64,000 nt of DNA, from the NCBI GenBank assembly GCA_018828125.1, contig JAHJWB010000003.1, positions 463,034-527,033 on the forward strand, given 5' to 3'. The translations under genes and the position numbers were made by a program. The notes beneath the pieces were generated by a model, which worked only from the letters and a program-made list of their open reading frames with translations, was not told the DNA's origin and ran no database searches. Source of the stretch: Gammaproteobacteria bacterium (GTDB taxonomy: Bacteria; Pseudomonadota; Gammaproteobacteria; Burkholderiales; Burkholderiaceae_C). This document shows, one piece after another, positions 20,187 to 31,125 of the stretch (position 1 is its first letter; every line of letters starts with the position of its first letter).

Positions 20187-21518
20187 ATGCCCCAATCCCT
20201 CAACGAACAACTGAGCCGCGAACAGCAAATTGCCGCCCTGGAAAAAGACTGGGCTACCAACCCCCGTTGGAAGGGTGTGAAGCGCGGCTACTCCGCTGCC
20301 GACGTGGTGCGTCTGCGCGGCTCGCTGCCCATCGAGCACACGCTGGCCAAGCGCGGCGCAGAAAAGCTGTGGGACAAGATCAACGGCGGCGCCAAGAAGG
20401 GCTACGTCAACGCGTTCGGCGCCATCTCTGCCGGCCAGGCCATGCAGCAAGCCAAGGCAGGCCTGGAAGCCGTGTACCTGTCGGGCTGGCAAGTCGCTGC
20501 TGATGGCAACACGTCCGAGACCATGTACCCCGACCAGTCGCTGTACGCCTACGACTCGGTGCCCACCATGGTCCGCCGCATCAACAACACCTTCAAGCGC
20601 GCTGATGAAATCCAGTGGGGCCGCGGCATCAACCCTGGCGACAAGGAATTCATCGATTACTTCCTGCCCATCGTGGCCGATGCAGAAGCCGGTTTCGGCG
20701 GCGTGCTGAACGCCTTCGAACTGATGAAGAACATGATCCAGTCGGGCGCTGCAGGCGTTCACTTTGAAGACCAACTGGCTGCCGTGAAGAAGTGCGGCCA
20801 CATGGGTGGCAAGGTGCTGGTGCCTACGCAAGAAGCCTGCGAAAAGCTGATTTCCGCTCGCTTCGCCGCTGACGTGATGGGCGTGTCTACCATCGTGCTC
20901 GCCCGTACCGATGCAGAAGCGGCCAACCTGATCACGTCCGACCACGATGCCAACGACAAGCCATTCTTGACCGGCGAGCGTACACAAGAAGGCTTCTACC
21001 GCGTCAAGAACGGCCTGGAGCAAGCTATCAGCCGTGGCGTCGCTTACGCTCCCTACGCTGACCTGGTGTGGTGCGAGACCGGCGTGCCAGATATCGGCTT
21101 CGCCCGTGAGTTCGCCCAAGCCGTGCACGCCGCCTGCCCCGGCAAGCTGCTGTCGTACAACTGCTCGCCATCGTTCAACTGGAAGAAGAACCTCAACGAC
21201 AGCCAGATCGCGTCCTTCCAGGAAGACCTGTCCGCACTGGGCTACAAGTACCAGTTCATCACGCTGGCTGGCATCCACATCAACTGGTTCAACACCTTCC
21301 AGTTCGCCCATGCATACGCCAACGGCGAAGGCATGAAGCACTACGTGAACATGGTGCAAGAGCCCGAATTTGAAGCACGGGACAAGGGCTACACCTTCGT
21401 GTCGCACCAGCAGGAAGTGGGCGCAGGCTACTTCGACGACGTGACCACGGTGATCCAAGGCGGTTCGTCTTCAGTGAAGGCCCTTACGGGTTCGACCGAA
21501 GAAGAGCAGTTCCACTGA
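20187..21518 (+). CDS. aceA: isocitrate lyase
   Basis: It splits isocitrate into glyoxylate and succinate, the first committed step of the glyoxylate shunt for growth on acetate or fatty acids. The 443-residue product contains the active-site loop [13 protein letters not shown] with its catalytic Cys (KKCGH). Other family signatures are [19 protein letters not shown] and [12 protein letters not shown]. The length is typical of the short proteobacterial class. It has its own regulatory region and a terminator. No malate synthase gene is in the window. Confidence 0.97.
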
Positions 21519-21567: not shown

Positions 21568-21598
21568 AAAGCCCGGAGCTGTTGCTTCGGGCTTTTTT
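21568..21598 (+). terminator. intrinsic terminator of aceA
   Basis: AAAGCCCG / CGGGCTTT stem with a 12-base loop followed by a T-run, 50 bases past the aceA stop. Confidence 0.88.
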
Positions 21599-21661
21599 CT
21601 TGGCGGCAGGGTTAAAATGCGGGCAAATTCACTGCACAAGAGCGAGAAAGGCAATCTGGTT

Positions 21662-21703
21662 ATGACACCGCGAACTACCTCGGAGACGTTGACCGGCCGC
21701 TAA
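21662..21703 (+). CDS. threonine-rich thrS leader peptide
   Basis: ATG to TAA encodes MTPRTTSETLTGR, in which five of thirteen residues are Thr, read from four different codons (ACA, ACT, ACC, ACG, ACC). AGAAAGG lies about 11 bases upstream. It overlaps attenuator segment 1, and its stop is 8 bases before segment 2, the arrangement of classical amino-acid leader peptides. I know of no other function for it. Confidence 0.75.
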   Translation: MTPRTTSETLTGR

Positions 21704-21747
21704 GGCTGGATGTTCGCGCCTGCACGAGATTGCACACCTCTTCCAGA

Positions 21748-21780
21748 AAGCGCGGACCCGTTCCGCGCTTTTTTGTTTTT
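21748..21780 (+). terminator. attenuator terminator before thrS
   Basis: AAGCGCGG / CCGCGCTT stem with a 7-base loop followed by TTTTGTTTTT, 56 bases before the thrS start. No complete gene lies between this and the aceA terminator, so it can only act on the thrS leader transcript. Confidence 0.88.
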
Positions 21781-21835: not shown

Positions 21836-23755
21836 ATGATTCACATCACGCTCCCTGACGGTTCGCAGCGCGAGTTCCCAGGTCCTGTCACAGTGGCTGA
21901 GGTAGCCGCCTCTATTGGCGCTGGCCTGGCCAAGGCGGCACTGGCTGGCAAGATTGACGGCAAGGTGGTGGATACCAGCTACCAGATCACGGCAGACAGC
22001 CCGCTGTCCATCATTACCGCCAAAGACGCCGATGGGCTGGATGTGATTCGCCACTCCACGGCCCACTTGCTGGCGTATGCGGTCAAAGAACTCTTTCCAG
22101 AGGCGCAGGTCACGATTGGCCCTGTCATTGAAAACGGGTTTTTCTATGACTTTGCGTACAAGCGCCCCTTCACTCCTGAGGATCTTGTCGCCATTGAAAA
22201 GCGCATGTCCGAATTGGCTGCCAAGGATGAGCCCGTCGTACGCCGCGTACTGCCGCGTGACGACGCTGTGGCGCATTTCAAGGCGCAGGGTGAGCACTAC
22301 AAGGCCGAAATCATTGCGAGCATCCCGAGCAATGAGGACGTCAGCCTGTACCGCGAAGGCAATTTCGAAGACCTGTGCCGCGGCCCCCATGTGCCAAGCA
22401 CGGGTAAGCTCAAGTTTTTCAAGCTGATGAAGGTTGCAGGGGCTTACTGGCGGGGCGACCACCGTAATGAGATGCTGCAGCGCATTTACGGCACTGCCTG
22501 GACTTCCAAGGAAGAACTGCAGCAGTACCTCACCATGCTGGAAGAGGCCGAAAAACGTGACCACCGCAAGCTGGGTCGCGAGCTTGATCTTTTCCACATG
22601 GACGAACACTCGCCAGGTACCGTGTTCTGGCACCCCAAGGGCTGGGCGTTGTGGCAAGAGGTGGAGCAATACATGCGCCGCGTGTACCGCAACAATGGCT
22701 ACCAGGAGGTCAAGGGTCCGCAGATCCTGGACAAGAGTCTGTGGGAAAAGACCGGCCACTGGGACAAATACCGCGACAACATGTTCACCACCGAATCGGA
22801 AAAGCGCGAATACGCGCTCAAGCCGATGAACTGCCCCGGCCACATCCTGATCTACAAGCAAGGCATCAAGAGCTACCGCGATCTGCCCCTGCGCTACGGC
22901 GAGTTCGGCGCCTGCCACCGCAATGAGCCCACCGGTGGCCTGCACGGCATCATGCGCGTGCGCGGTTTCACGCAGGATGATGGGCACATCTTCTGTACCG
23001 AAGAGCAGGTGCTCGAAGAGTGCGCCAACTACACGGCGCTGGTGCAGAAGGTCTACAAGGATTTTGGTTTTACAGACATCATCTACAAGGTTGCCACGCG
23101 GCCTGAGGCGCGCATTGGCACGGATGAGTCGTGGGATCGCGCAGAGAAGGCGCTGATGGATGGCCTCCGCCATTCGGGCTGCGAGTTTGAGATTGCCGAA
23201 GGCGAGGGCGCGTTCTATGGTCCGAAGATCGAGTACACGCTCAAGGACGCCTTGGGTCGTCAGTGGCAGTGCGGGACGATGCAGATCGACCCCAATCTGC
23301 CTGAGCGCCTGGATGCGGAGTACGTCGCTGAAGACGGCAGTCGCAAGCGGCCCTTGATGCTGCACCGCGCTACGGTCGGCAGCATGGAACGCTTCATCGG
23401 TATGTTGATCGAGCACTATGCAGGTGCCTTCCCACTGTGGCTTGCACCAGTGCAGGTTGCGGTGCTCAACATCACCGATGCACAGGCCGATTACTGTCGC
23501 GAAATTGCAGCAAAACTGCAAAAAGCACTGCCGAATCAAGACCTTAGGGTGGCGGTCGATCTGCGCAATGAGAAGATTACGTATAAAATACGCGAGCATT
23601 CGTTGCAAAAGCTGCCGTACATCCTCGTCGCGGGCGACAAGGAAAAGGCCGCAGGAGCCGTCGCAGTGCGTGGCCGGGGCAATCGTGACCTCGGCGTGAT
23701 GTCCGTTGAAGCGTTTGCTGAACTGATCGCCCAAGACATCGCCACCAAAGCCTGA
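21836..23755 (+). CDS. thrS: threonyl-tRNA synthetase
   Basis: It charges tRNA-Thr. The 639-residue enzyme has an N-terminal TGS domain (1-60), the editing N2 domain with [11 protein letters not shown] and [13 protein letters not shown], and class II motifs. These include [19 protein letters not shown], motif 2 [30 protein letters not shown] and motif 3 [20 protein letters not shown]-terminal anticodon-binding domain follows ([14 protein letters not shown] onward). The ATG at 21836 starts [17 protein letters not shown] as in homologues. It heads the thrS-infC-rpmI-rplT-pheST group behind the attenuator. E. coli instead controls thrS translation through a tRNA-like operator. Confidence 0.98.
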
Positions 23756-23842: not shown

Positions 23843-24445
23843 ATCGCTACTGAATTTCGTGATCGTCGCCACCGTGAAGAGCGCAAGCACCGCCTGAACC
23901 GTGAAATCATGGCCCCGGAAGTCCGTCTCTCGGGTCCTGACAATGAGCCTTTGGGCGTTGTCAGCTTGATGGAAGCCTTGCGCATGGCAGGCGAGTTGGA
24001 CGTGGATCTGGTGGAAATCGCTGCCACAGCGAACCCTCCAGTGTGCCGCTTGATGGACTACGGCAAGTTCAAGTACCAAGAGCAAAAGCGTGCTGCCGAA
24101 GCCAAGGCCAAGCAGACGGTCATCGAGATCAAGGAAGTCAAGTTCCGTCCCGGTACGGACGATGGTGACTACAACATCAAGATGCGCAATATCCGCCGCT
24201 TTCTGGCGGATGGCGACAAGTGCAAGATCACCCTGCGGTTCCGTGGCCGTGAAATCACGCACCAGGAATTGGGGCTGGCCCTGCTCAATCGCATTCGTGA
24301 TGAGTTGGGCGACACCATCCTCATCGAGCAGTTTCCCAAGCTGGAAGGCCGCCAGATGATCATGATGATTGCTCCCGGCCGCAAAAAACCAGCCGCCGCG
24401 AAGCCTGCTGCAGAAGGCGCTTCGTCGGCTGGCAGCGCTGCCTGA
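23843..24445 (+). CDS. infC: translation initiation factor IF-3 (ATC start codon)
   Basis: IF-3 binds the 30S subunit and rejects non-standard initiation codons. The 200-residue product begins (M)[20 protein letters not shown] and includes [37 protein letters not shown] and [14 protein letters not shown], covering both domains. The frame extends 22 codons upstream of the first ATG to ATC at 23843, preceded by GAAGGAAG 6 bases away. No ATG, GTG or TTG gives a complete N-terminus. A rare AUU/AUC start is the known basis of IF-3 autoregulation in other bacteria. The C-terminal [15 protein letters not shown] tail is an extension. Confidence 0.96.
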
Positions 24446-31049: not shown

Positions 31050-31125
31050 TGGTGCCGGAGAGATGAATCGAACACCCGACCTTCTCATTACGAATGAGCT
31101 GCTCTACCGACTGAGCTACACCGGC
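31050..31125 (-). tRNA. tRNA-Thr (anticodon CGT)
   Basis: A 76-base tRNA on the minus strand starting GCCGGTGTAGCTCAGTCGG and ending in an encoded CCA. The anticodon loop is TTCGTAA with CGT (plus-strand 31090-31092). It reads ACG codons. Confidence 0.96.

Follow-up and report, generated by a model that had tools for sequence, protein, structure and literature searches.

In the window, i.e., the whole stretch of 64,000 nucleotides that was analyzed, aceA (positions 20187-21518; product named isocitrate lyase by NCBIfam) and thrS (21836..23755, plus strand) are separated by a gap of 317 bases. The thrS gene, which is the putative target of the control described here, was recognized from its ORF and by NCBIfam. 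It encodes a threonyl-tRNA synthetase (ThrRS) of 639 amino acids, which scored 722.5 bits against the NCBIfam equivalog TIGR00418 (cut-off 383.65). Among the named loci listed, the closest ThrS was that of Acidovorax facilis (L176), with 98% identity over the aligned part, which makes Acidovorax or a neighbouring genus the probable origin of the window. The infC gene (window 23843-24445; NCBIfam infC) has an apparent AUC start, the unusual start type of infC, and the list of ORFs gives it only an internal ATG, at 23909. A tRNA-Thr gene with anticodon CGT is found at 31050-31125 on the minus strand of the same window.

Leader ORF and pairing segments upstream of thrS

Direct reading of the aceA-thrS gap revealed a leader ORF and four segments, all on the plus strand. 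The sequence TAAAAT at 21613..21618 is a possible -10 element of a leader promoter, and boxes resembling it were seen by eye in many upstream regions among those listed. It is a weak candidate, since a promoter scan found none. The conserved block AAGAGCGAGAAAGGC (21638..21652) precedes the start codon and probably serves the leader ORF as its ribosome-binding region; when 53 chosen leaders were aligned, its GAAAGGC columns were conserved at 90% or more, and the box was unrecognizable in the leaders of families f35 and f47. The leader ORF itself, MTPRTTSETLTGR, spans 21662..21703 (ATG at 21662, stop codon TAA at 21701-21703) and has 13 codons, with Thr at codons 2, 5, 6, 9 and 11 (21665, 21674, 21677, 21686 and 21692), so that the 13-codon ORF with five Thr codons described in an earlier note on this DNA was read again directly.

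Segment 1, CGCGAAC (21669..21675), lies within codons 3-5 of the leader ORF and is a 7-bp complement of segment 2, GTTCGCGC (21712..21719), which by complementarity can be the partner of either segment 1 or segment 3. Between segments 1 and 2, an inner hairpin, CCGGCC-GCTAA-GGCTGG (21693..21709), is predicted, with a loop that contains the stop codon of the leader; this hairpin differs among relatives. Segment 3, GCGCGGAC (21750..21757), has an 8-bp pairing with segment 2 and is also the 5' arm of a putative intrinsic terminator, whose 3' arm is segment 4, TTCCGCGC (21761..21768). The terminator scan placed the 3:4 hairpin at 21745-21773, and a T run, TTTTTTGTTTT, was read directly after segment 4 (21769..21779). 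Thus, all four segments (21669-21675, 21712-21719, 21750-21757 and 21761-21768) were recovered where they had originally been placed, and their mutually exclusive 1:2, 2:3 and 3:4 pairings were found as contiguous helices of 7 bp (1:2) and 8 bp including one G.U (2:3) and as the terminator hairpin. By eye, a further stem followed by a T run, GCCCGGAGC-TGTT-GCTTCGGGC, was observed at 21571-21600, at the end of aceA, in a place where the terminator scan listed none; if this stem ends aceA transcription, the thrS leader would have its own promoter.

Distribution and conserved core of the leader

ThrS was found in 297 of the 299 genomes of the window's family by a family search. We analyzed the upstream DNA of 110 ThrS genomes, window included, a non-random sample drawn from the upper score list with few skipped, and found the leader in 89 of the 110 by a relaxed rule. 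A first count had given 81/110, including the false member L055, whose match falls outside the leader. Among 399 sampled genomes of the order, the exact leader pattern was present in 32, and a sequence-only model gave 54 matches at E up to 0.01. The motif was carried by 47 of the 399 genomes, which belong to 8 of the 51 sampled families (f1, f3, f8, f10, f32, f35, f39 and f47); the 47/54 count leaves out G403 and G556 and takes the f39 genomes G607 and G683 without a thrS check. Five fetched model matches in f22, f23 and f49 did not have the motif by the leader rule and were dropped, and the other 43 of the 51 sampled families gave no accepted match with this model, which scores sequence only and could miss leaders that differ in sequence. 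At class level, 229 genomes gave strong matches in just three, all from the family to which the window belongs, besides five weak ones, and the window's own genome contained one match to the leader sequence model.

A scan of named genomes returned at least 119 stretches with the leader pattern, including those of Comamonas, Acidovorax, Variovorax, Massilia, Janthinobacterium, Cupriavidus and Roseateles; at the species level, Acidovorax facilis and Variovorax paradoxus are among the carriers of the leader. We listed 149 loci, comprising matches from the order sample and the named genomes, the window's own locus (L115) and some family-sample genomes. The thrS gene directly followed the motif in 147 of them, and the other two end too early to tell. 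One listed locus, L147, comes from a metagenome bin labelled Alphaproteobacteria and has a thrS leader of the beta-proteobacterial type; the label is probably wrong.

The conserved core of the leader is GTTATGACACCGCGAACT, which is 18 nt in length and encodes MTPRT, often extended to MTPRTT. In the 219 distinct leaders that remained from 236, codon 2 was ACA in 217, codon 4 was CGA in 210 and codon 5 was ACT in 196, and our search rules had left the third positions of these three codons free. By comparison, 138 invariant four-fold codons of thrS had an average third-base identity of 73% across 30 genomes, and no more than 6 of them reached 95%. In six window genes, ACA and ACT made up 9% and 6% of Thr codons and CGA made up 4% of Arg codons; the control codons are therefore rare. 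Codon 6 behaved differently from this nearly fixed core, being Thr in 67 of the 89 family leaders but encoded as ACA (31), ACC (20), ACG (14) or ACT (2). This use of all four Thr synonyms points to the amino acid as what counts at codon 6. Codon 6 was never Thr in 15 leaders fetched from f3, f35, f39 and f47, which leaves codons 2 and 5 as the common minimum, and several leaders of f35, f39 and f47 had only two Thr codons. The expectation of the earlier note that the Thr codons would be conserved in relatives was thus borne out at codons 2 and 5, and often at 6, but not for the later Thr codons of the window peptide.

The attenuator model gives no account of the GTT before the start codon or of the Pro and Arg codons, all of which are invariant. 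Both at third positions and ahead of the start, the core GTTATGACACCGCGAACT was near-fixed in GC-rich as well as AT-rich families, while the sequence that it pairs with changed. This pattern raises the possibility, which we hold to be rather doubtful, that the core does not serve as control codons alone but is also either an RNA-level element or an early MTPRT stalling site, in which case a second signal might join tRNA sensing. If it is an RNA-level element, it might act for ThrRS, for a ribosome at initiation or for a folded region at the start.

The leader rule failed for 21 of the 110 family members. By eye, decayed leader remnants were visible in at least three of these (L023, L027 and L049), and a terminator-like hairpin, GC-rich and with a T-rich tail, was present in 18 of the 21 (in L089, the hairpin scored is an upstream one) versus 17 of 420 shuffles. 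Relatives that keep the terminator in the absence of the Thr codons or segments 1 and 2, which the earlier note had named as evidence against its reading, therefore exist; we read them as losses. Five genera (g52, g87, g92, g99 and g106) hold both states, with and without the leader, which suggests that the leaderless members arose by repeated loss. In nine leaderless thrS upstream regions (L065, L073, L082, L083, L085, L087, L097, L100 and L101), a GCGCGG-type hairpin with a T-rich tail has been kept and lies 18-31 nt after a -10-like box. It is possibly a remnant brake or a 5' stem of the mRNA.

Covariation and predicted switching of the leader RNA

A terminator was called in 233 of 234 leaders. 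Segment 2 varied in sequence and place among these leaders, and yet its position relative to the leader stop codon was constrained. The best dual-pairing stretch overlapped the stop in 101 of the 233, lay no more than 12 nt after it in 110 or no more than 12 nt before it in 15, and was elsewhere in 7, such that segment 2 was over the stop or within 12 nt of it in 226. In 84 of the 233 leaders, the joint pairing of a single 11-nt stretch with segment 1 and with the terminator arm plus its loop was better than in any of 40 shuffles (~6 expected), and in 127 it ranked second of 40 or better. When segment 2 was picked by segment 1 alone in 203 distinct leaders, its pairing with the leader's own terminator arm scored -13.52, versus -12.37 ± 0.15 for permuted arms, and 0 of 200 permutations were as good; because the leaders are related by descent, such counts are non-independent and the permutation figures overstate independence. 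The same permuted-arm test gave no 2:3 covariation signal for 12 distinct leaders of f3, f35, f39 and f47. In Oxalobacteraceae, use of the terminator 5' arm without its loop gave a weak 2:3 signal, and inclusion of the loop recovered pairings such as CUAGUCG:CGGCUAG.

The contiguous 2:3 pairing was GUUCGCGC:GCGCGGAC in the window, GGCCGCGC:GCGCGGUC in L098, GACCGCG:CGCGGUC in L163, CAGCCGCGC:GCGCGGCUG in L255, GUAGUCGCGC:GCGCGGCUAC in L105, CGGUUCGCGC:GCGCGGACCG in L062 and GCUAGUCGCG:UGCGGCUAGU in L296. The 1:2 pairing was short in several leaders, e.g. 4-5 contiguous pairs in L090, L113 and L134. For a count of individual pairs, 70 of the 233 leaders without a GCGG or YYGC anchor and 15 duplicates were removed, leaving 148. 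The first pair beyond the GCGG core was formed in 93 of these versus 58.6 ± 5.1 expected, and it occurred as A-U, C-G, U-G and U-A; the second pair showed a mild excess (106 versus 100.4), and the third and fourth showed little. The first two pairs formed in 199/296 cases with the proper partner, in contrast to 42/148, 112/296 and 79/296 when the partner was shifted by -1, +1 and +2, respectively. The comparison of thrS leaders for compensatory changes that had been proposed as a check thus showed that 2:3 covaries and that segment 2 is complementary to both of its partners.

RNAalifold analysis of 24 leaders returned only a start-codon hairpin, a small stop-codon hairpin and the terminator. 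This set was picked by a stop-codon motif (25 leaders, minus L241, which had no called terminator) and includes L154, a leader of another type. We also considered whether the terminator loop mimics a tRNA anticodon and dropped this idea because the terminator loops vary among leaders. Immediately downstream of the leader stop, L126, L127, L134, L210 and further leaders of the Oxalobacteraceae type have CUUUUUCGUC-like stretches that are able to pair with the AAGAGCGAGAAAGGC box. This box-to-post-stop pairing beat shuffles (rank within 5%) in 20 of 47 clade-d leaders, and it may hide the ribosome-binding site of the leader.

We also folded the transcript up to segment 3 while a ribosome-sized stretch was held open. 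In the window, the probability of 1:2 pairing without a ribosome was 0.85, and that of 2:3 pairing was 0.11; the latter rose to 0.72-0.73 with a ribosome on codon 2, 5 or 6 and was 0.19 with a ribosome at the stop. The claim that the codon positions fit ribosome stalling on Thr therefore agrees with the predicted fold of the window, which switches under the mask. A full switch with a ribosome on any of codons 2, 5 and 6 was predicted for 88 of 233 leaders, versus 19 of 233 when the middle was shuffled (one shuffle per leader), and on codon 6 alone for 48 versus 14; by the strict measure, 145 of the 233 leaders did not switch. For the 42 Oxalobacteraceae-type leaders, the any-codon switch was predicted in 18 versus 3 shuffled and the codon-6 switch in only 4 versus 3, and a looser codon-6-minus-stop measure was no better than shuffles (5 versus 9). 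When folded under the mask, the Cupriavidus leader L113, which is identical to that of the named Cupriavidus necator L165 (dropped as a duplicate), gave no 2:3 pairing, and L112 (family f32) gave it only when a ribosome occupied the start codon. For the full leader, nearly every state tested contained the terminator at equilibrium. Hence, the switch must be kinetic, the antiterminator winning in time, as in known attenuators.

Proposed mechanism, alternatives and known systems

By computation, we observed a leader ORF, its conservation, mutually exclusive helices, covariation and a predicted switch, and this locus has those defining features of leader-peptide attenuators that sequence can test. 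The conserved Thr codons, the synonyms at codon 6, the dual complementarity of segment 2, the 2:3 covariation and the folding switch all support the Thr-peptide attenuator proposed in the earlier note. We conclude, with a probability of roughly 0.84, that a ribosome-mediated transcription attenuator controls thrS according to the supply of charged tRNA-Thr. RNA polymerase would start just upstream, from a putative promoter, and a ribosome would presumably begin to translate the leader ORF. Under a shortage of Thr-tRNA, this ribosome would pause on one of the rare Thr codons (2, 5 or 6) and mask segment 1, whereupon the emerging segment 3 would pair with segment 2, the 3:4 hairpin would come too late and thrS would be transcribed. 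When Thr-tRNA is ample, the ribosome would reach the stop beside segment 2 and either cover this segment or let 1:2 reform, so that segment 3 would pair with segment 4 and transcription would end before thrS. If the leader were not translated, 1:2 would form and transcription would also end. Besides its promoter and the translation of its ORF, this model thus predicts that ribosomes stall, that transcription terminates in the cell and that the leader responds to threonine.

Several other explanations were weighed against this attenuator. The terminator might be a fixed brake or a 5' stabilizing hairpin of the thrS mRNA to which the leader ORF adds little, as the hairpins kept by 18 of the 21 leaderless members, nine of them near a -10-like box, could be taken to indicate; we consider this unlikely because it leaves the conserved Thr codons and the 1:2 and 2:3 pairings unaccounted for. 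It is similarly improbable, if slightly more so, that the short ORF is incidental and that ThrRS binds an autoregulatory operator and blocks thrS translation, as in E. coli. Conservation of the core GTTATGACACCGCGAACT at third positions and before the start, beyond what the peptide needs, does resemble that of a protein-binding RNA. However, the distance between the terminator and thrS had a median of 46.5 nt and did not exceed 28 nt in roughly one quarter of 218 leaders, so that an operator would find little space next to the ribosome-binding site of thrS, and both the synonymous change at codon 6 and the tie of segment 2 to the stop and the terminator point to translation and termination.

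Another type of tRNA-sensing leader, i.e., a T-box or a member of the Rfam Thr operon leader family, would share the amino acid and the logic, but it is very improbable: apart from two tRNAs, the window had no Rfam match at the gathering threshold, and cmscan of the window at this threshold gave no match to the T-box (RF00230) or to Thr_leader (RF00506). A chance ORF ahead of an ordinary terminator is equally remote. Terminator-like sites are common in shuffles, with a mean of 0.9 per shuffle of the region in the same scan, so that the 3:4 hairpin alone proves little. On the other hand, an ORF of 8-30 codons with at least five Thr codons arose in only 2 of 1000 dinucleotide shuffles of the 317-base gap, and the RNA of 21640-21780 folded at -53.1 kcal/mol versus -40.5 ± 3.6 for shuffles (z -3.5; 0 of 200 as good). 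A stronger control than these shuffle tests is that relatives have kept the leader ahead of thrS, and the presence of the motif before thrS in 147 of the 149 loci listed already refutes coincidence.

Control of thrS is by translational self-repression in E. coli and by a T-box in Gram-positives. If the attenuator reading is true, this gene would have a third mode of control, a peptide attenuator shared by several families of beta-proteobacteria. It would also make sense of the short ORFs that precede thrS in Acidovorax, Comamonas, Variovorax, Massilia, Cupriavidus and others and would constitute a natural, testable sensor of threonyl-tRNA charging that bears a conserved sequence tag. Furthermore, the absence of the leader beside a kept terminator in some relatives opens the gain and loss of attenuation to study. 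The suggestion of a third route thus stands for thrS but does not extend to synthetase genes at large, as peptide-dependent attenuation of aminoacyl-tRNA synthetase genes is already known (pheST) or predicted (cysS, leuS and trpS). We found no earlier report of a thrS leader peptide among the open-access articles searched, and the peptide string MTPRTT was absent from these articles.

The E. coli thrS operator, which is bound by the ThrRS protein and acts on translation, resembles the window leader in controlling thrS and differs in that the window has a peptide and a terminator. The Thr_leader family (RF00506), the thr operon attenuator, shares the logic of a Thr-sensing leader peptide and controls threonine biosynthesis. 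The pheST attenuator of E. coli has the pheM leader peptide and lies inside the thrS-infC-rplT-pheST cluster; inspection by eye of the rplT-pheS gap of the window revealed no Phe-rich ORF. Like the window leader, the pheST attenuator precedes an aminoacyl-tRNA synthetase gene and combines a short cognate-rich leader ORF with exclusive helices and a terminator, but pheST senses Phe, whereas the window leader would sense Thr. Published sources name ThrRS self-regulation (PMC2965389), give the Rfam accession RF00506 of Thr_leader (PMC3766115) and name pheST as a classical attenuator (PMC1262725). The last source also predicts classical attenuators of the synthetase genes leuS and trpS of Streptomyces, which differ from the thrS leader in their amino acids, their phylum and the small number of genomes (PMC1262725). 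Finally, uORFC-8-2 before cysS of Rhodobacterales is a predicted ribosome-mediated attenuator that resembles the thrS leader in belonging to a synthetase gene within one bacterial order and in having two conserved cognate codons and a first stem that holds these codons, followed by a terminator (PMC8632094). It differs in responding to Cys, in its occurrence in alpha-proteobacteria and in its tandem codons, which are usually codons 14 and 15 (PMC8632094), while the thrS leader has its Thr codons at positions 2, 5 and often 6, within a nearly fixed nucleotide core.
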